Positions 5,521-14,774 of a stretch of 64,000 nucleotides of DNA are shown here, piece by piece. The position numbers and the translations under genes are program-made. The notes below the pieces were generated by a model, which worked only from the letters and a program-made list of their open reading frames with translations, did not search any database and was not told the DNA's origin. Numbering within the stretch: the first letter of the stretch is position 1; each line of letters opens with the position of its first letter. Source of the stretch: Acidothermus sp. GTDB lineage: Bacteria; Actinomycetota; Actinomycetes; Acidothermales; Acidothermaceae. The stretch covers positions 1-64,000 of the forward strand of contig JAIMAI010000008.1 of NCBI GenBank assembly GCA_023512015.1. The letters are read 5' to 3'.

Positions 5521-5880
5521 TCAGCCAGGATTTTCCCGGCGTCGATCCCAGCGTTCCTCCATGCGGTGCAGGAAACGACGGCGTGGCGGCTTCGGCCGCC
5601 CAACGCCCCGAGCACGGCGACGCCAGATCGCCCCGGCGTAGAGGAGTGCCCCGATTGCCACCAGGATCCCGAGAACCGCAATCTCGTACTGGCGGATCAG
5701 GATTCCGACCGGGACGAGCAAGGCTCCCAAGATACCCGCAATCGCCGAACGGAGAAGGCGACGGCGGCGATAGATCCGTGGGTCGATGGACCGGACCGTT
5801 GCGGCAAATTTGGGATCGTCTGCCGACAACGTGCGTTCGATCTCTTCGAGCACACGCTGCTCATGCTCTGAGAGCGGCAC
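5521..5880 (-). CDS. DUF3040 small membrane protein
   Basis: A 119-residue actinobacterial DUF3040 protein. It starts PLSEHEQRVLEEIERTLSAD, the family opening. Two adjacent membrane helices (about residues 40-85) and a strongly basic tail follow. GTG at 5880 is preferred because GGAGGG lies four bases upstream and the family motif begins there; an in-frame ATG at 5904 is the alternative. Function is unknown. It is convergent with the transglutaminase gene and downstream of the HEPN gene on the same strand. Confidence 0.85.
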   Translation of the reverse strand: MPLSEHEQRVLEEIERTLSADDPKFAATVRSIDPRIYRRRRLLRSAIAGILGALLVPVGILIRQYEIAVLGILVAIGALLYAGAIWRRRARGVGRPKPPRRRFLHRMEERWDRRRENPG

Positions 5881-5904
5881 GGTGCCCTCCCGCGACCATC
5901 CCAC

Positions 5905-6290: not shown

Positions 6291-6803
6291 TCACGCTGCC
6301 GACGAGCGTGGGTTCGCCGGTGCCGGCTCCGCTCGGTTGATTTCCCGTTGGACGACGGTGAGGAAGAGTTCGGCGTCGCGTAGGAGATCATCGGCTTCGC
6401 GCGTGGTCACCACCGATGGGAGACCTGCTTCTGCCGCCGCGCGTTTGGGAGCACCTGCGGAGAAATATGCCGCCCACTCCGATAGGTGAGGGGCAACTCG
6501 ACTCAACAGCACCCAGACATTGCGAGATCCTCGGCCGCGTCGAGAACCCATCGCGTCCGGTCGTGCCCGAACGGCCAGGACGGCGGCGGCTGCACGCAGC
6601 GCGGCCAGGTGTGCCGCGGCATAGCGGTAAGCAGGGTTGGTACTTCCCGAAGCTTCTACGATTCCGGCGGAAGCAAGCCGGAGCAGATGACGGGCCTGTC
6701 GCAGCGACGCCGAGAGTCCGGTCGGGGAAGGTGCAGCAGAAGAACGGTCGCAATCGAGAACGGGAAGGGGCGCTGCGGCGGGCGACGGATGCGACGGAGA
6801 CAT
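6291..6803 (-). CDS. SAV_6107-family HEPN protein under LexA control
   Basis: A 170-residue mostly helical protein of the actinobacterial SAV_6107 HEPN family. HEPN domains are often RNases or nucleotide-binding partners. The canonical HEPN R-hydrophobic-x3-H motif is present as RYAAAH (Arg60, His65), followed by LAALRAAAAVLAVRARP. The ATG has GGGAGGA about four bases upstream. A perfect LexA box lies inside the spacer of a promoter about 90 bases upstream, which predicts SOS induction. It sits directly downstream of the mutasome operon. Catalytic activity is inference from the motif. Confidence 0.85.
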   Translation of the reverse strand: MSPSHPSPAAAPLPVLDCDRSSAAPSPTGLSASLRQARHLLRLASAGIVEASGSTNPAYRYAAAHLAALRAAAAVLAVRARPDAMGSRRGRGSRNVWVLLSRVAPHLSEWAAYFSAGAPKRAAAEAGLPSVVTTREADDLLRDAELFLTVVQREINRAEPAPANPRSSAA

Positions 6804-6843
6804 GGTTCCTCCCGACTGTCGATGCCCTTCGGGCGGGGAGCTG

Positions 6844-6888
6844 CTTCGCCTGGGAGGCGGCGGGTCGAGGACCGCCCCCCAGGCGAAG
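6844..6888. repeat. Inverted repeat in the HEPN gene leader
   Basis: CTTCGCCTGGG (6844-6854) pairs with CCCAGGCGAAG (6878-6888), and the stem extends inward through GCGG/CCGC with mismatches. It lies between the predicted HEPN promoter -10 (6887-6892) and the start codon at 6803, so most of it would be in the mRNA leader. No U run follows on either strand, so it does not look like an intrinsic terminator. Confidence 0.55.
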
Positions 6889-6915
6889 ATTCGAACGTAT
6901 GTTCGATAAAGCCAA
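6887..6915 (-). promoter_or_regulatory. HEPN promoter with LexA (SOS) box in the spacer
   Basis: Minus strand: -35 TTGGCT (6910-6915), 17-base spacer, -10 GAATCT (6887-6892). Within the spacer and flanks sits the perfect palindrome TCGAACGTATGTTCGA (6891-6906), the actinobacterial LexA consensus GAAC-N4-GTTC. LexA bound here would cover the spacer and block transcription. The arrangement is the same as at imuA'. Confidence 0.85.
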
Positions 6916-7122
6916 GATAGTGGGCTCCGGTGAGGAAGTCAAGCCACGATCGGCGCTCCTTGAGGTGTCGGCTCGGGTTCCGGCAATTTGGGTTTCGGCG
7001 GCTCAGTTGCAGCGGCTCGGGGCGATCGGCTTGGGTTCGGCAGTTCGGGCGGCCGGTTCGGGTTCCGACGGTTTGAACCGGGTATTTCGCGGAAAGCGTG
7101 GGCTAAGATCATCCGATCGGTC
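6916..7122. other. Intergenic region downstream of dnaE2
   Basis: About 200 bases between the end of dnaE2 and the HEPN promoter. It holds several imperfect copies of GGTTCGG / GGGTTCCGG-like words (about 6975-7085), a low-complexity stretch that would read as Pro-rich on the minus strand. I see no gene or terminator. Confidence 0.4.
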
Positions 7123-10100
7123 TCAGCGGAAATCCCGAGAAGCGCGGCGGATCCCCAGGGGAAGCGGGGCAAGCTTTTCGGCAATCACATTGACCACACC
7201 GTCGGCCCGCTCCAGCCGTCCTCGGACGATCAGCGCAGGTGCCGTTCGCGCAATCCGTCGGTAACGGACCCAGACCCCGATCGAACAGATCACGTTGACC
7301 ATCCCGGTCTCGTCCTCGAGGTTCAGGAACGTCGTTCCCCGGGCCGTCGCCGGACGCTGCCAGTGAGTGACCACTCCCCCCACGAGGACTCGAGAATTAG
7401 AGCGCGTCCGGCGCAGCTCTGCGGCGGGAATCACCCCCATCGCGGTCAGTCGATCCCTGAGGTGAACCGTCGGATAGACCTCGGGGGTGATCCCAGTGGC
7501 TCGCAGATCGGCGAGGGTCGTCTCGACCTCGTCCATCGCAGGAAGCTGCGGGGGATTCTCTCCCACCACCACTCCGGCCAACCGATCCGGACCTCCGGCT
7601 GCCACAGCACCCGCGACCCATACCGCTTCCCGCCGGGACAGACCGAAGCAGCCACACGCCCCCGCTTCGGCGAGCGCCTCCATCTGGGCCGCAGTGAGGC
7701 CGCAGCGTGCCGCGAGATCGGCCATGTCGCGGTACGGACGATTCGCCGCGATCCGTTGAGCGACTTCGGCACCGATACCCTTCACCGAGACCAATCCCAG
7801 CCGCACCGCCCACCGGTGCGAACCTTCCTCCACTGGTTCCAGCGTCGCCTTCGCGGCACTCGCGTTCACACACGGACGACGCACGACCACCCCGTGTCGA
7901 CGAGCGTCGGCCACTACCGACTGAGGGGAATAAAAACCTAAAGGCGCCGCATTCAACAATGCCGCACAGAACGCCGCCGGATAATACTTCTTCAGCCACG
8001 CACTGGCATACACCAAGTATGCGAAGCTGATGGCGTGGCTCTCGGGGAAACCAAAATGAGCGAAAGCTTGCAATTTCTCGTAGATTTCGTCTGCGACCGC
8101 TCCGGTGATACCGCGGGCGGCCATTCCGGCGTAGAGCTTGGCCTTCAACCGCTCCATCCGCTCAACCGAACGTTTGGCGCTCATCGCCTGCCGGAGTTGG
8201 TCTGCTTCGGCGGGGCTGAGACCGGCCACGTCGATGGCCATCTGCATGATCTGCTCCTGGAAGAGCGGGACCCCGTAGGTCCGCTCCAAGGAATGACGCA
8301 GCAGCGGATGGGCATACCGTACCGGTTCGCTTCCATTGCGGCGCCTGATGAACGGATGCACCGATCCGCCCTGGATCGGACCGGGACGGATGATGGCAAC
8401 CTGAGTGACCAGGTCGTAGAAATTCCGCGGACGCACCCGAGGAAGAGTTGCCATCTGTGCCCGGCTCTCCACCTGGAAGACACCGACCGAATCTGCCTCG
8501 GACAGCATCTCGTACACCCCCGGGTCCTCCGGAGGAATCGTTTCCAAGGAAAGCCGACGCCCGTGATACTTCTCGATCAAGTCGAAGCAGCCGTGCAACG
8601 CAGAAAGCATTCCCAAACCGAGCAGGTCGAATTTCACCAGGCCGACTCGGGCACAATCGTCCTTGTCCCACTGCAGCACCGTCCGTCCCGCCATCCTCGC
8701 CCACTCCACCGGACACACCTCGGTCACCGGGCGATCGCAGATCACCATGCCTCCCGAATGGATCCCGAGATGTCGGGGAAATCCGAGGATGTGGTTGGCC
8801 AGGGTCACGACCTCATCGGGCAGGTCGTGGTCGGCGTCCGCTCCGGAAGGAACCGCACCGACCCGATCGATCTGCTTGGACCAGGCGTCCTGCTGACCGG
8901 GCGAATATCCAAGGGCTCGAGCCACGTCCCGGACGGCGGACCGCGACCGATACGTTATCACGTTGGCAACCTGCGCCGCGCGATCCCGACCGTACCGCTC
9001 GTAAACGTGCTGGATCACCTCTTCCCTCCGGTCGCTTTCGATGTCGAGATCGATGTCGGGAGGGCCGTCCCGTTCGGGGGTGAGGAACCGCTCGAAGAGC
9101 AACCGAAAAGCGATGGGGTCCGCTTTGGTGATGCCGAGAACGTAGCAGACCACGGAATTCGCCGCGGATCCGCGGCCCTGGCAGAGAATGTCACGAGCGC
9201 GGCAGAATTCCACGATTTCCCAGACGGTGAGGAAGTATCCGGGGAATCCCAACTGCTCGATGACGTCGAGCTCGTGACGAAGTTGCCGGTAGACCTCGGG
9301 TCTGGCCTGCGGGGAGCCGTAAAGACGCTGCGCTCCCCGCATCGCCAATTCCCGCAGATAACTCATCTCGGTGTAGCCCTCGGGCACCGGGAAATCGGGG
9401 AGCCGCGGGGCGATCAATCGTAGATCGAAGGCACACTCGCGGCCCAGCCGCGCCGCGTTGGCCACCGCCTGCGGATAACGACCGAATCGCGCGACCATCT
9501 CCGCCCCCGAACGCAGATGTCGCACCGGGGCGGGCGGTAGCCAACCCTCCATCCGGTCCAGACTCCGCCGCGCTCGCACCGCCGCCAACACCGCGGCGAT
9601 CCGTCCTTCTCCTGGGGTTGCATAGTGAGCGTTCGTGGTGGCCACCACCGGCAGACCTCGACGAGCGGCAGCCTCCGCCAGCGCGTCGTTGACCGTGGAA
9701 TCCAAAGGTTGCCCTTCGTCGGTGAGCTCCACCGCCACGTTGTCGCGCCCCATCAGGTCGACCAGATCGTCCAAAGCAGCACACACCCCCGGCAAGCCGT
9801 CCCTCACGAATCCCCGACGCACCCGACCTTTCCGGCATCCAGTGAGCACCAGCCAATGGCCTCCGTGCAGGCCGGCGATCCGTTCAAGGTCGTAATGCGG
9901 CCGACCTTTCTCCCCGCCTCGCAACTGAGCCTCACCGATGGTCGCGGCGAGCCGCCGGTATCCTTCGACGTCACGGGCGAGAACGAGCAGGTGTTCGCCG
10001 TCCGGGTCGGCGACTCCCGGGCGGGGTGCTTGCGCACCCACCGATAATTCGGCCCCGAAAACAGTACGAATTCCCCACTCCGCCGCGGCTTCGGCGAACC

Positions 10101-10422
10101 GCACGACCCCATAGAAACCATCGTGGTCGGTCAGGGCGAGGGTCTCGATACCCAAGTAGGCCGCTTCCTCGACCAACCGTTCGGGAGAACTCGCCCCGTC
10201 GAGGAAACTGAAATTCGAATGACAGTGCAATTCCGCATACGGGACGGCCGGAGCATTCCTGTGGGCCGACGACGTGGACGCCGGCCGGTACGGCGGACGT
10301 CTGCGGGACACCGGGGCATCGACGTCCGCGGGAAAAACCGCAGTAGCCGGATCCACCGTGGGACGGCCGGCCAGCCGACGTTCCAGCTCCTGCCACGGTA
10401 TCGGCGGATTGCTCCACCCCAT
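7123..10422 (-). CDS. dnaE2: Error-prone DNA polymerase DnaE2 (C-family)
   Basis: DnaE2 is the catalytic subunit of the SOS mutasome that copies past DNA lesions with ImuA' and ImuB. The 1099-residue protein has an N-terminal PHP domain (YAELHCHSNFSFLDGASSPE, about residue 62), the palm motif PDIDLDIESDRR near residue 450, finger and helix-hairpin-helix regions, and a C-terminal OB fold (VLVGGVVTHWQRPATARG). Length fits the family (about 1,050-1,100). It starts 12 bases after imuB with a GAGGG Shine-Dalgarno, so it is the last gene of the LexA-controlled imuA'-imuB-dnaE2 operon. Confidence 0.96.
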   Translation of the reverse strand: MGWSNPPIPWQELERRLAGRPTVDPATAVFPADVDAPVSRRRPPYRPASTSSAHRNAPAVPYAELHCHSNFSFLDGASSPERLVEEAAYLGIETLALTDHDGFYGVVRFAEAAAEWGIRTVFGAELSVGAQAPRPGVADPDGEHLLVLARDVEGYRRLAATIGEAQLRGGEKGRPHYDLERIAGLHGGHWLVLTGCRKGRVRRGFVRDGLPGVCAALDDLVDLMGRDNVAVELTDEGQPLDSTVNDALAEAAARRGLPVVATTNAHYATPGEGRIAAVLAAVRARRSLDRMEGWLPPAPVRHLRSGAEMVARFGRYPQAVANAARLGRECAFDLRLIAPRLPDFPVPEGYTEMSYLRELAMRGAQRLYGSPQARPEVYRQLRHELDVIEQLGFPGYFLTVWEIVEFCRARDILCQGRGSAANSVVCYVLGITKADPIAFRLLFERFLTPERDGPPDIDLDIESDRREEVIQHVYERYGRDRAAQVANVITYRSRSAVRDVARALGYSPGQQDAWSKQIDRVGAVPSGADADHDLPDEVVTLANHILGFPRHLGIHSGGMVICDRPVTEVCPVEWARMAGRTVLQWDKDDCARVGLVKFDLLGLGMLSALHGCFDLIEKYHGRRLSLETIPPEDPGVYEMLSEADSVGVFQVESRAQMATLPRVRPRNFYDLVTQVAIIRPGPIQGGSVHPFIRRRNGSEPVRYAHPLLRHSLERTYGVPLFQEQIMQMAIDVAGLSPAEADQLRQAMSAKRSVERMERLKAKLYAGMAARGITGAVADEIYEKLQAFAHFGFPESHAISFAYLVYASAWLKKYYPAAFCAALLNAAPLGFYSPQSVVADARRHGVVVRRPCVNASAAKATLEPVEEGSHRWAVRLGLVSVKGIGAEVAQRIAANRPYRDMADLAARCGLTAAQMEALAEAGACGCFGLSRREAVWVAGAVAAGGPDRLAGVVVGENPPQLPAMDEVETTLADLRATGITPEVYPTVHLRDRLTAMGVIPAAELRRTRSNSRVLVGGVVTHWQRPATARGTTFLNLEDETGMVNVICSIGVWVRYRRIARTAPALIVRGRLERADGVVNVIAEKLAPLPLGIRRASRDFR

Positions 10423-10434
10423 CGGTCCCCACCC

Positions 10435-12063
10435 TCAGTCGTAACGACCCTCGGCAACCCAGCCGCCGTTGCGGGAACTCACCAGCCAGGCCATGCCGTC
10501 CGCGGTGACCAACTGCAGCCGCACTCCACGGCGGGCCGACCCGGCGTCCCACCACCGTTCGTCGAACGGCCACGGCCCCGCCCACGCCGTCACCGGAAAC
10601 GACTCCCCTTCGAAGGAGAACCACTGCGGCGAACCGCTCAACCGCAACCGCCCGTCGACCCGCACGACTTCCCCCGCAGCCGTGCTCACCACCGCCCGGC
10701 GCGGCGGATCCCAGACGGTCGACGGCGACGGAGAAGGCAGCGACCCCGGCCACGGATCTGCGAAATCGGGTGATTTTCCCTCGATCCCCGAATTCCAGGG
10801 GAGCCACCGCACCCGCGATATCGGATCCCGGCCACCTCCGAGGACGCCGACCAGTACGCCGTCCGGGCCGAGCATTCCTTCCAGACGAGACAACACCTGC
10901 GATATCCGACTCCGGCGATCCCCTTCTCCCCCTCGTTCCCCCCATAACGACAATTGCCGACCCGCGTCGAGCACGGTCTCGTCGGCCACGAGCCGCAACC
11001 ACACCAGACCGGAACGCAATTCCCCGGACTCCAGCCATCCCGCTACCTGCCATCGCACTCGGTCGACCATGGCCGCGACCGAGAGAACCCGCGCATCCAC
11101 GGACCGCCAGACACGAGACCGCACGGCACCGTCCTCAGCTCTCGCTTCGACGACCACCCTCGTGCAGCCCAGCCCTCGGCGTCGTAGCATTCCGTGCAAT
11201 TCCTCCGCCAGGGATCGGGCGACGAACGACGCGCCGTCCACTCGGTCGATCGGTGGGTCGAGGTCACGCTCCACCGTTACCGCCGACATTCCTTTCGCAG
11301 CCGGAAAGAATCGGGCCGGTTTCCCGGATGCCAGGTCGTGAGCCAGTGCCAACTGCTCCCCCCAGCGGCTCGCCACCACATTCCTGGGGAGAGCAGCGAA
11401 ATCCCCGAGCGTTCGCAGGCCGAGTCGAGTCAACACCGCTGCGCCCCCATCTCCCAGGCGGGACACCGGAAGCTCTGCGAGAAAAGCAGCCGACTCCCCC
11501 ACCGGAACGATCCGCCCACTGTATGCCGCCTGGACCGCCGAGAAGAACCCATCGGAAATCCCGCAACGGACCGGATATCCCAGCCTGCCGGTCACCCGCT
11601 CGATGATGATGCGGGTGAGTGGCAGCTCTCCGCCGTGATAACGAGCCGCTCCCCTCGCCGGAGCAACCAACAGGCCGGGATAGACGACCTCCGGATCCGC
11701 AACGACTTCTGCGACACACGCGACCACGGCCTCGAAAAGCCGGTTATCCCGCATGGGATCACGCGGATAGAGCCGAAGCCACGGACACCGGGCTTGAGCG
11801 TCCCGCAACCGCTGACCCCGGCGGACCCCGGCGGCTCGAGCGGCGGGAGTGCAGACGAAAATCCTCCCTTTCTCGATGACGGCGCTTGCCACCCCCGGTT
11901 CGCCACCGGCAGCGAGCACGGGCCAATCCGGGCACCAGACCGCCAGAACCCGCTCCGTCGGAAAAGTCGAGGAAACCCGGAGCTCCCCCGGCAGCGACGA
12001 CGGCGCCGACGGCGGAACCTGCTTCTTTTTCCCCGCCGACGTCGACGCAGCCGACGACGTCAT
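10435..12063 (-). CDS. imuB: ImuB, catalytically dead Y-family polymerase adaptor
   Basis: ImuB bridges DnaE2, ImuA' and the beta clamp in the mutasome. The 542-residue protein has a Y-family fold in which the first catalytic segment reads VLAVWCPDWPVLA, without the DxDxFF acidic motif of active polymerases, as expected for ImuB. A clamp-binding motif QLSLWG is present near residue 380. Helix-hairpin-helix residues appear as RLGLRTLGDFAALP. The frame stays open far upstream, but the ATG at 12063, 32 bases after the imuA' stop, gives the family length. Confidence 0.92.
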   Translation of the reverse strand: MTSSAASTSAGKKKQVPPSAPSSLPGELRVSSTFPTERVLAVWCPDWPVLAAGGEPGVASAVIEKGRIFVCTPAARAAGVRRGQRLRDAQARCPWLRLYPRDPMRDNRLFEAVVACVAEVVADPEVVYPGLLVAPARGAARYHGGELPLTRIIIERVTGRLGYPVRCGISDGFFSAVQAAYSGRIVPVGESAAFLAELPVSRLGDGGAAVLTRLGLRTLGDFAALPRNVVASRWGEQLALAHDLASGKPARFFPAAKGMSAVTVERDLDPPIDRVDGASFVARSLAEELHGMLRRRGLGCTRVVVEARAEDGAVRSRVWRSVDARVLSVAAMVDRVRWQVAGWLESGELRSGLVWLRLVADETVLDAGRQLSLWGERGGEGDRRSRISQVLSRLEGMLGPDGVLVGVLGGGRDPISRVRWLPWNSGIEGKSPDFADPWPGSLPSPSPSTVWDPPRRAVVSTAAGEVVRVDGRLRLSGSPQWFSFEGESFPVTAWAGPWPFDERWWDAGSARRGVRLQLVTADGMAWLVSSRNGGWVAEGRYD

Positions 12064-12095: not shown

Positions 12096-12788
12096 TCAGC
12101 TCGCTTCGCCCACTCGAAGAATTGCCTGCTGCAGACGATCGCCGTTCGAGACGATCGGGTGCTCTGCGATACGCCAGCGTGTCGCCGCGGTGAAACCCAC
12201 GACTCCCCGGCCTCGGGCCACCACGTCGAATTCGCCCCGGCACACGTACCCTTCGCCGCGCCCCGGCCCGCTCCACCACCGTGATCTGACGGTGAGCCGT
12301 ACCGCCGCTTCCCCCCATTCCCCTGTGATCATCACGATGGCCGACCGCTCCCGGGCCCGGGCGGCGAGACGGCGCAGCGTGGTCGCCGTCCGGCCGGTGG
12401 TCGCCGTCCGGCCTGGAGGATGGACGACGACCAGGTCGAAGCCTTCGAGAAGAGCAGCGGTGACCTCCGGCCAGCGGTCCCCCGCGCGCGGGAGGCGGAC
12501 GAACCGCTCCAGCTCCACCCCGAGCTCCGCGGCAGCCGCCGTCCCGACGAGAGGAACCCCCACCTCCGCACACCATCCCCCATGACGCGACACCGCAGCA
12601 AGCAGAGCGATCGTGAGGAACGTCGAGTTCGCGACACACAACACCGAGCCGCGGCGCAGTTCCCCCCCGGGGAACAAGCCGGCCAGGGAGGAAGAAAGCG
12701 GGAACCCGGCCGGGGAAACCGCAGTGAGGAGATCGCCCCGATGGACGTCGTCCGGCAGCGGGGCGACGGCCGAAGCGGTCGGAACCAC
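12096..12788 (-). CDS. imuA': ImuA' mutasome subunit (RecA-like)
   Basis: A 230-residue member of the ImuA'/RecA-like family, the third mutasome component. It has a RecA-like core with LPDDVHRGDLLTAVSPAGFP near the start, SSLAGLFPGGELRRGSVLCV in the position of a degenerate P-loop, and FDLVVVHPPG as a Walker B-like strand. The GTG at 12788 is chosen because it lies six bases after a -10 (GATACT), so the mRNA is predicted to be leaderless. The frame also contains ATGs at 12806 and 12821, but these fall inside the promoter and LexA box. Confidence 0.85.
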   Translation of the reverse strand: MVPTASAVAPLPDDVHRGDLLTAVSPAGFPLSSSLAGLFPGGELRRGSVLCVANSTFLTIALLAAVSRHGGWCAEVGVPLVGTAAAAELGVELERFVRLPRAGDRWPEVTAALLEGFDLVVVHPPGRTATTGRTATTLRRLAARARERSAIVMITGEWGEAAVRLTVRSRWWSGPGRGEGYVCRGEFDVVARGRGVVGFTAATRWRIAEHPIVSNGDRLQQAILRVGEAS

Positions 12789-12794
12789 AGAGCG

Positions 12795-12823
12795 AGTATC
12801 GAACATATGTTCGAAGAGCACAA
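12795..12823 (-). promoter_or_regulatory. imuA'-imuB-dnaE2 promoter with LexA box in the spacer
   Basis: Minus strand: -35 TTGTGC (12818-12823), 17-base spacer, -10 GATACT (12795-12800). The perfect palindrome TCGAACATATGTTCGA (12799-12814) fills the spacer and matches the actinobacterial LexA box. The predicted transcription start coincides with the GTG of imuA' at 12788. Confidence 0.88.
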
Positions 12824-12857
12824 TGGGGTCGGGCGTCTGATCGATTACCCTGAAGCC

Positions 12858-13355
12858 GTGATGTCGTCCCTACCTCCCTCTGTGATCAGGGTTCGTGATG
12901 CTCTTCGAGCCGCCGGAGTAGAACCAGAAATTCGTTTCCTCGCCGAATCGGCCCGGACAGCCGCTCAGGCCGCCGCCGCCCTCGGCGTCGAGATCGGTCA
13001 GATCGCCAACAGCCTGATCTTTCAAGCGGACGGCGCCCCGCTGCTCGTTCTTGCCAGCGGTCGTCATCGGGTGGACACCAGGAAAGTCGCCCAACTGATG
13101 GGGGTAGCCGACGTCCGCCGCGCCGACCCCGAATTCGTCAGGGAGCACGCCGGAGTGGCCATCGGCGGGGTGGCCCCTGTCGGACATCCCCGCCCCCTCC
13201 GCACCGCGGTCGACCTGACACTCGCCGACTACGAGACGATTTGGGCGGCGGCAGGCCACCCTCACGCTGTTTTCCCTACGACTTTTGCGGAACTGGTCCG
13301 CATCACCAACGGAATCGTCGGCGTCATCGGGTCTGAAGACGGCAACACCCGATAG
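12858..13355 (+). CDS. YbaK/ProX-type aminoacyl-tRNA deacylase
   Basis: A 165-residue YbaK/EbsC-family protein that removes wrongly attached amino acids from tRNA in trans. Visible family blocks are SLIFQADGAPLLVLASGRHR with the preceding IGQIAN, the RKVAQLMG segment, and IGGVAPVGHPRPLRTAVD, which contains the conserved GG-P-GH signature. A -10 (TACCCT, 12846-12851) ends six bases before the GTG at 12858, so leaderless translation from it is likely; ATG at 12861 is the alternative. It diverges from imuA'. Confidence 0.88.
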   Translation: MMSSLPPSVIRVRDALRAAGVEPEIRFLAESARTAAQAAAALGVEIGQIANSLIFQADGAPLLVLASGRHRVDTRKVAQLMGVADVRRADPEFVREHAGVAIGGVAPVGHPRPLRTAVDLTLADYETIWAAAGHPHAVFPTTFAELVRITNGIVGVIGSEDGNTR

Positions 13356-13457: not shown

Positions 13458-14774
13458 GTGACCACGGCCATCGAGGCGAACGAGCGCATCCACTCAGCGC
13501 TGGAAAATCTGGAAGAAGCAGCGAAGCAGCTCGTCCACGCCCTCTTCGAAACCGACGACTCCCGGTTTTTCCCCTCACAACCGATGGAATGGTTGCATCG
13601 AATCGAGAGAATCAAAAGACGCCTCGACGCCGCCCAGACATCCCTCATCGCCGCCGCCGAAGCACGTCACCTCCCCCGCCACAATGGGGCAACCTCCTCG
13701 GAGGCATGGCTGAGAAACGAACTAGGGATGTCGATCTCAACCGCCAAGGATGCCGTACAACTCGCTCGCGAACTCCCCGTGCACCCAGCAGTGCGAAATG
13801 CCTTCTGCGCAGGGGATATCAACGTCCAAGGCGCCTCAGCCATTTGTGAAGCCTTGCGCTCCTTTCCGGCCAAAACCCCCCATCGCACTCTCGAAGTGAT
13901 CGAAGAGGACCTCGTCAGTACGGCCCGGGAGAAAGGACCGACCTCCGTGGCTCGGAGGGCATCCGAATTCTTGCATCGCCTCGCCCCCGAAGCTCTTGCC
14001 GCGCAAGAAGCACAGCAGCAAGAGGAGAGCAGACTGAAGCTGCGGGTATGCCCGGACGGGAGGCTGAACCTGCGGGGGATGCTGGACCGCGAGAGTGGAG
14101 CGCTCGCTCTCGCCGTCCTCGGTTCACTGGCTGCTCCGAGCTCCAGCGACGATCCTTCCCATCCGCGAGACAGCGAGCAGCGGTACGCGGACGCACTGGT
14201 GAGCGTTCTGCGAATCGCGCAGAGCAGCGACAAGGTCCCCACCGTCCACGGGGAGCGACCCACGGTCGTCGTCACCGTCGGCTTGGAGACGCTATGTCAG
14301 AAGCCCGGACAGGGTCCGGGGTATCTGCAAACCGAAGCACCGATCTCTGCCGCCACGGCCCGGCGGCTGGCGTGTGATGCCCGGCTGGTTCCCCTTGTGC
14401 TCGGTAACGAAAGCGAACCGCTCGACGTCGGGCGCGCCACATACACCCCTCCCCTGTCGCTCCGCCGGGCTGTGGTGGCTCGAGACCGGGGGTGTGCCTT
14501 CCCGGGATGCGACCGACCAGCGAGCTGGTGCGACTGCCACCACATGGTGCACTGGGCGGACGGCGGCTCGACGTCGATCGATAACTTGTGTCTCTTGTGC
14601 CCCCGCCATCACACCATCGTGCACACCGACGGATGGAAAGTGTTCCTTGGAGAAGACAAACGGCCCTGGTTCGTCCCACCACCCTGGGTAGAGCCGGATC
14701 AAGAACCCCGTCAGCACATGCGTTACCGAGCGGGGCCACTCCTCGTTCCCGCAACCGACGTCGTCGCGTCGTGA
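13458..14774 (+). CDS. DUF222/HNH endonuclease-like protein (13E12 repeat type)
   Basis: A 438-residue protein of the actinobacterial DUF222-HNH (mycobacterial 13E12) type, often multicopy and of unclear role. The N-terminal DUF222 helical domain spans about 1-330. The C-terminal HNH nuclease reads RDRGCAFPGCDRPASWCDCH then HMVHWADGGSTSIDNLCLLC then PRHHTIVH, with all metal and zinc ligands kept. GTG at 13458 is the start. Its end overlaps the convergent metF by 52 bases. Target DNA is unknown. Confidence 0.85.
   Translation: MTTAIEANERIHSALENLEEAAKQLVHALFETDDSRFFPSQPMEWLHRIERIKRRLDAAQTSLIAAAEARHLPRHNGATSSEAWLRNELGMSISTAKDAVQLARELPVHPAVRNAFCAGDINVQGASAICEALRSFPAKTPHRTLEVIEEDLVSTAREKGPTSVARRASEFLHRLAPEALAAQEAQQQEESRLKLRVCPDGRLNLRGMLDRESGALALAVLGSLAAPSSSDDPSHPRDSEQRYADALVSVLRIAQSSDKVPTVHGERPTVVVTVGLETLCQKPGQGPGYLQTEAPISAATARRLACDARLVPLVLGNESEPLDVGRATYTPPLSLRRAVVARDRGCAFPGCDRPASWCDCHHMVHWADGGSTSIDNLCLLCPRHHTIVHTDGWKVFLGEDKRPWFVPPPWVEPDQEPRQHMRYRAGPLLVPATDVVAS

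Follow-up and report, generated by a model that had tools for sequence, protein, structure and literature searches.

A SAV_6107-type HEPN gene under predicted LexA control beside the imuA'-imuB-dnaE2 mutasome of an Acidothermus sp. and its possible part in translesion synthesis

The SAV_6107-type HEPN gene that neighbours the mutasome genes in the window (the whole 64-kb stretch of Acidothermus sp. DNA that was analysed) has at its promoter a LexA operator that is conserved in many relatives, and its membership of the LexA (SOS) regulon, which the preliminary description of this DNA had claimed, is strongly supported by these sequences. We judge the chances to be slightly better than even that its product is a damage-induced, catalytically inactive HEPN accessory of translesion synthesis, serving as an adaptor or a nucleic-acid-binding partner. 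The elements from which this reading is built are the box and promoter and their conservation, the operon context, the loss of the catalytic histidine and a covarying hairpin in the leader RNA. In actinobacteria, resistance mutations are driven by error-prone synthesis that DNA damage induces, and the composition of the mutasome is still described as elusive (PMC10421592). Under predicted LexA control over many families, and often encoded in polymerase operons, the HEPN protein is a direct candidate for a missing part; this would place it in repair rather than among toxins or defence systems, and a new leader RNA is also indicated. SOS operons with HEPN in many relatives, a PafBC-type promoter in many of them and the covarying leader hairpin appear to be new here. 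The genes and LexA boxes concerned are:

5521-5904, minus strand: DUF3040 gene (SCO2097-like), downstream of HEPN; PF11239, 1.4e-21
6291-6803, minus strand: SAV_6107-type HEPN gene, 170 aa, ATG at 6803, stop at 6291-6293; PF18726, E=2.9e-36
6891-6906, no strand assigned: perfect LexA box TCGAACGTATGTTCGA of the HEPN gene, one of three perfect boxes in the assembly
7123-10422, minus strand: dnaE2 (error-prone polymerase), upstream of HEPN; NF004225, 1497 bits, cut-off 939
10435-12051, minus strand: imuB (Y-family-like); IMS, 2.6e-9; longest ORF to 12639, true start downstream of that
12096-12821, minus strand: imuA' (longest ORF); NF058630, 149 bits, cut-off 65
12799-12814, no strand assigned: perfect LexA box of imuA' (TCGAACATATGTTCGA), from a sequence scan

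The HEPN ORF scored 124.4 bits against the Pfam model PF18726 (HEPN_SAV_6107; cut-off 27.2) over model positions 1-98 of 98, in agreement with the family assigned to it in the preliminary description. NF058630 matches imuA' from residue 49, so the true start of imuA' is probably downstream of its LexA box, and the window contains imuA'-imuB-dnaE2 and HEPN as two consecutive LexA units. Both boxes, 5.9 kb apart, were read as originally reported and are the only perfect 16-mers in the window. The 12-base core GAAC-N4-GTTC would be unsurprising alone (2 found in the 64-kb window versus 1.37 expected), but a pattern search of the whole 2.1-Mb assembly returned only three perfect 16-mers, at the lexA promoter (lexA was recognised from its ORF beside this third box), imuA' and HEPN, which puts the HEPN box among the genome's three best; a chance origin was rejected on this count. 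An assignment of the box to a divergent gene was rejected too, since the upstream dnaE2 is on the same strand.

Sites with one mismatch in the assembly include one before ruvC (read from its ORF), one near an Rv2578c-like gene and another adjoining a RecA-like match on contig C66. The lexA promoter (L227; C66:24038 in this genome) has one perfect and two one-mismatch boxes, in common with a divergent LysM gene whose position resembles that of Rv2719c/divS.

The scan upstream of HEPN found one sigma-70-like promoter, with 9 of 12 matches and 0.0 expected in shuffles:

6914-6942, minus strand: HEPN promoter TTGACT-17-TATCTT, -35 at 6942-6937, -10 at 6919-6914; promoter scan

With the promoter in this place the operator starts 7 nt after the -10 and would cover the start site. 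The nearest relatives, L074 and L075, have TTGACG-N17-TAGAGT and TTGACG-N17-TAATGT, with the distance to the box unchanged. The box had earlier been placed in the 17-base spacer of a TTGGCT/GAATCT promoter, a layout said to be that of imuA'; the scan puts the HEPN box past the -10 instead, whereas the imuA' box sits inside the spacer of TTGTGC-17-GATACT (read by eye), so the two layouts differ. In undamaged cells, LexA bound to the operator at the transcription start would block RNA polymerase, and RecA-driven cleavage of LexA would open the HEPN gene together with imuA'-imuB-dnaE2; such binding and induction are predicted for the organism of the window.

To follow the operator across relatives, whole genomes were searched for the family, and the homologous loci taken from them were put in the orientation of the HEPN domain. 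A perfect LexA box was present within 470 nt upstream of HEPN in 37 of 107 loci versus 2 of 1769 control windows, and a box with at most one mismatch in 59 of 107 versus 9 of 1769; the control windows, of the same length and from the same loci, mix promoter and coding DNA and are unmatched for intergenic position, and the enrichment is too large to be explained by that mixing. The N4 bases vary between loci, so simple inheritance of copies does not account for the sites. Within 1 kb, 20 loci from 19 further families had 16 perfect boxes and 4 with one mismatch, and in loci with a DUF6504 gene before HEPN the box was further upstream. The preliminary description had proposed looking for boxes upstream of homologues, and on these counts, 59/107 with at most one mismatch and 20/20 in the further loci, they are conserved. 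Most Streptomyces-type loci have a degenerate CCGAAC-N4-GATCGA, which agrees with the S. venezuelae LexA consensus tCGAAC-N4-GNNCGa (PMC9380542). Of the 28 named Corynebacterium loci, 22 have a site with two mismatches or fewer, and in 9 there is a site with a single mismatch.

In Corynebacterium the genes run metF-HEPN-DUF3040-mraZ, and the LexA site precedes HEPN. We take metF of C. glutamicum to be cg2383. The mraZ gene of this species is cg2378, and cg2381, which is placed in the LexA regulon of Jochmann et al. 2009 as cited in PMC5055667, is induced by ciprofloxacin (M 3.86; PMC5055667). From the gene order and the position of mraZ, cg2381 is very probably the C. glutamicum orthologue of the HEPN gene; C. 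glutamicum was absent from the records returned by a Corynebacterium-only alignment, so this identity rests on gene order. The LexA regulation of cg2381 matches that predicted for the HEPN gene, but cg2381 is listed only as a conserved hypothetical. The earlier statement that no description of such a gene was known must thus be qualified by cg2381, LexA-regulated and ciprofloxacin-induced; it stands for the HEPN identity and the polymerase linkage, which were in no paper found, and within the open-licence literature we found nothing joining HEPN with SOS or translesion synthesis.

Many of the homologous loci carry, upstream of the LexA box, TTGTCGGTG-N8-TATATT, which is the RecA-NDp motif; its consensus was reportedly given by Gamulin in 2004 as TTGTCRGTG-N8-TANNNT. 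With at most one mismatch the motif was found in 53 of 107 loci (37 of 59 general, 16 of 18 Streptomyces-type and 0 of 30 Corynebacterium) versus 0 of 873 control windows of 870 bp, and in most general (non-Streptomyces-type) loci the LexA box is 7-9 nt behind it. The RecA-NDp motif is the route by which PafBC activates damage genes (PMC6789036, PMC8223512). In many relatives the PafBC-type promoter overlaps the operator, and both branches of the damage response could thereby act on HEPN. The loci with this overlap include L112-L151 (e.g., L127, L139 and L147), and the promoter is also found in Streptomyces-type HEPN loci without a good LexA box. The HEPN promoter of the window is without the motif, its best match having 4 mismatches.

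Gene order supports the link to the mutasome that the preliminary description had drawn. In L039 and L055, from another family, HEPN is the first gene and is followed by imuA', imuB (found as DinP-like) and dnaE2, and operon-like runs with a DnaE-type polymerase, DinP or both occur in many other families. The order DUF6504-HEPN-DnaE was found in L052, L053, L060, L063 and L066, and 10 of the 20 further-family loci share it; for three loci the DUF6504 assignment was checked against Pfam. In most of these loci DinP and DUF3040 come next, and a methyltransferase gene frequently intervenes. In L054, L067, L195, L201 and L202, DinP comes directly after HEPN or after the methyltransferase. A polymerase gene lay within the fetched stretch in 13 of the 20 further-family loci. 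Streptomyces-type and Mycobacteriaceae-type loci have no adjacent polymerase gene, and their constant neighbour is the methyltransferase or DUF3040. The order metF ... HEPN ... DUF3040 ... mraZ, common among the loci, points to a single ancestral SOS cluster, parts of which were later lost in individual lineages; with this shared place the adjacency events are not all independent, and the adjacency of HEPN to polymerases may in part reflect inherited position rather than function. The ImuA'-ImuB-DnaE2 mutasome is under LexA control, as is predicted for HEPN, neighbours it in the window and shares one cluster with it in L039 and L055, but HEPN is not described as one of its components (PMC10421592) and is absent from a genus presumed to be Mycobacterium.

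The DnaE proteins of the DUF6504 loci form their own group in an unrooted tree, apart from the DnaE1 and DnaE2 of the window, and score similarly against the DnaE1 and DnaE2 models, below both cut-offs; this distinct group, whose genes share an SOS operon with those for DUF6504, HEPN and DinP, was seen in L052, L053, L060, L063, L066 and L192-L208. A conserved class I methyltransferase lies between HEPN and DinP or DUF3040 (in L054 at +413..+1127 from the HEPN domain start), and the same type is found downstream of HEPN in Streptomyces-type loci. Its best NCBIfam match was CmoM, below the cut-off, and it possibly belongs to the HEPN damage operon.

The DUF3040 gene is a conserved neighbour of HEPN in most relatives, and no gene order is more constant than HEPN-DUF3040(-mraZ). 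One could argue from this that transcription from the LexA promoter of HEPN continues into DUF3040, which encodes an SCO2097-like morphological protein, and mraZ, so that division is delayed. SOS regulons do usually hold a division inhibitor, but the divergent LysM gene at the lexA boxes is a better candidate for it, and in several families polymerase genes stand between HEPN and DUF3040. In C. glutamicum treated with ciprofloxacin, moreover, cg2381 rises strongly, mraZ falls and cg2380 is unmentioned (PMC5055667). We regard a role in regulating division or the dcw cluster as quite unlikely.

The distribution of the gene also bears on its role. It was found in 120 of 168 genomes of the class and in 269 of 301 genomes of one family, where among the misses listed all but one belonged to genus g4, presumably Mycobacterium. 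This genus is without the HEPN gene yet keeps DnaE2 and ImuA', so a mutasome can work without HEPN. In genus g250, 60 of 61 genomes have the gene; we identify this genus as Corynebacterium, since the only records that an alignment of its proteins retrieved were from Corynebacterium. Co-occurrence with imuA'-imuB-dnaE2 thus ranges from one cluster (L039/L055) through neighbouring units in the family of the window to the DnaE2/ImuA' of g4 without HEPN. With one copy per genome and near-universal presence in its lineages, HEPN fits a core repair role rather than that of a mobile toxin.

The 6291-6803 product is predicted to have the all-helical fold of the HEPN superfamily. Its AlphaFold model was confident (pLDDT 91.1, pTM 0.83), and the best fold match in the PDB was 2hsb (AF_0298, a HEPN protein; TM 0.73/0.78, E 0.04), then 1wol and HEPN-MNT toxins (8xeh); all of these are HEPN proteins, at modest E-values of which 0.04 was the best. 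The nearest solved structure, UPF0332/AF_0298 (2hsb), retains the Arg and is without the His at the canonical site, as is the window protein, although it is archaeal, has 19% identity to the window protein and is of unknown function. In the HEPN survey of Anantharaman et al. 2013 (PMC3710099) the window protein is a clear member of HEPN-M (SAV_6107), which is PF18726, with fold, actinobacterial origin and unconserved catalytic motif alike; the survey gives neither regulation nor gene neighbours for this family, to whose description the present analysis adds SOS control, polymerase linkage, the PafBC-type promoter and the leader hairpin. Some weak PF18726 matches in other classes (L068-L081), which are without LexA boxes and resemble generic HEPN proteins, were set aside as not belonging to the SAV_6107 family.

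The preliminary description took R60-Y-A-A-A-H65 for the motif of HEPN RNases and proposed that the protein is a damage-triggered growth brake or a mutasome partner; as a brake it would cut RNA with R60 and H65 so that growth is slowed during repair. The letters are present as written and fit R-x4-H, the gene is damage-controlled by sequence, and the HEPN superfamily includes many RNases (PMC3710099). As a catalytic motif, however, RYAAAH does not hold up: it forms the start of helix 2 in the model, and in a profile alignment (97% probability) it aligns with RFATAY of the generic HEPN group. The proposal had been staked on conservation of R60 and H65, and for H65 this fails: across 155 homologues residue 65 is His in 46 and Tyr in 104. 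R60 is Arg in 94 of 155 (89 of 97 outside Corynebacterium) and is absent from most Corynebacterium, though the LexA box is kept there.

The catalytic site was located with the help of 2hsb and the generic HEPN group, and in the alignment to 2hsb the canonical region LREESDYG corresponds to KRAAAEAG, so that the canonical site of the window protein is RAAAEAG, with the Arg kept and the His missing. This Arg, R121, is kept in 145 of 155 homologues, with no His 5-7 residues beyond it, and the protein has no conserved R-x4-6-H, the hallmark of HEPN ribonucleases, in its C-terminal half. The most conserved residues among the homologues include W97 (155), A72, A74, F147 (152) and R70 (151), followed by A68, W110 (149), G127 (147), R121 and F114 (142). 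The survey likewise lists the catalytic motif of the SAV_6107 family as 'No' (PMC3710099). With H65 unconserved and in helix 2, and the canonical site without His, the protein is unlikely to cut RNA by the usual HEPN mechanism.

HepT/MNT-HEPN toxin-antitoxin systems (PDB 8xeh, 6m6u, 5yep) share the fold class, but HepT proteins have R-x4-H (e.g., RNILVH) in the C-terminal half, where the window HEPN is without His, and are paired with MNT; a profile alignment of the HEPN protein with HepT toxins was not significant. No MNT antitoxin was seen beside HEPN among the neighbours found, which were screened without an MNT-specific profile. Those neighbours were repair polymerases, DUF6504, the methyltransferase and DUF3040, none of them antitoxin-like, and a core, single-copy gene whose distribution is not patchy does not behave as an MNT-HEPN system. 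We consider the growth-brake proposal very unlikely, and as the reading as an RNA-cutting toxin fails, a helper of damage-tolerant DNA synthesis, which would act in contact with a polymerase, becomes more likely.

Between the LexA box and the start codon, the HEPN leader of the window folds into an 18-bp hairpin, referred to as hairpin A (-50 kcal/mol and z=-3.4 for the leader):

6804-6813, minus strand: Shine-Dalgarno region GGGAGGAACC of the HEPN gene, read from the sequence
6843-6889, minus strand: 5'-leader RNA hairpin A, 14-18 bp stem, loop CCUCGACCC; from folding and covariation

The loop CUCGACCC is common to 7 leaders from several families (the window, L074, L075, L066, L192, L196 and L207), in which 13 of 14 pairs have compensatory changes (score 0.898 versus 0.270 in shuffles). 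A second hairpin, with the loop AGGGAAG, was found in Mycobacteriaceae-type leaders, where 95% of cells are paired and 10 of 15 pairs have double changes. The level of double changes in hairpin A was reached by 3 of 500 shuffles and that in the AGGGAAG-loop hairpin by 0 of 500; both sets were picked by a loop and stem requirement, which biases the percent paired upwards and the compensatory changes less so. In leaders of L118-L150 the AGGGAAG-loop hairpin follows the LexA box at a distance of about 20 nt, for example at L147:4284-4329 on the minus strand.

In whole-genome searches the strong match of each hairpin model was the HEPN leader where one exists and other matches were weak, most of the genomes searched having contributed sequences to the models; in its own genome, the hairpin A model matched only the HEPN leader. 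Rfam gave nothing above the gathering score for these hairpins. An ordinary intrinsic terminator was considered and rejected, as there is no T run, the loop is conserved and each genome has one strong match.

The hairpin would provide control after initiation, possibly through feedback by the HEPN protein or by masking of the ribosome site. GAGGA in the Shine-Dalgarno region is complementary to UCCUC at the loop of hairpin A, and it is conceivable that the ribosome site pairs with the loop. HEPN domains commonly bind RNA or nucleotides, and together with the strong covariation and the strong genome match of each model at the HEPN gene this fits a protein whose main ligand is RNA, its own leader hairpin included, and whose link to polymerases is indirect. 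Two loop types occur in different lineages, though, neither being clearly present in Corynebacterium or Streptomyces-type leaders, and we find it unlikely that the protein is mainly such an RNA-binding autoregulator. Taken further, the reading as a translesion-synthesis accessory would make the protein an unrecognised ancient component of that process, a dead HEPN under LexA and PafBC control that works with DnaE, DinP or ImuB and whose synthesis is adjusted through a leader hairpin of a new class, to which the protein itself may bind; we put this forward tentatively, as somewhat improbable in its entirety.

Near its start, at about 50-110, the window has a low-complexity run (translated FFFFFFF) that may be an assembly artefact. 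The imuA' box (region 12799-12821) lies in the gap to a divergent YbaK-like gene with a tRNA-editing domain (12850-13355, plus strand), and from there could act on this gene too. A DUF222-HNH (13E12-type) gene (13458-14774, plus strand) separates the mutasome genes from metF, and 13E12-type DUF222-HNH genes are SOS-linked in M. tuberculosis.
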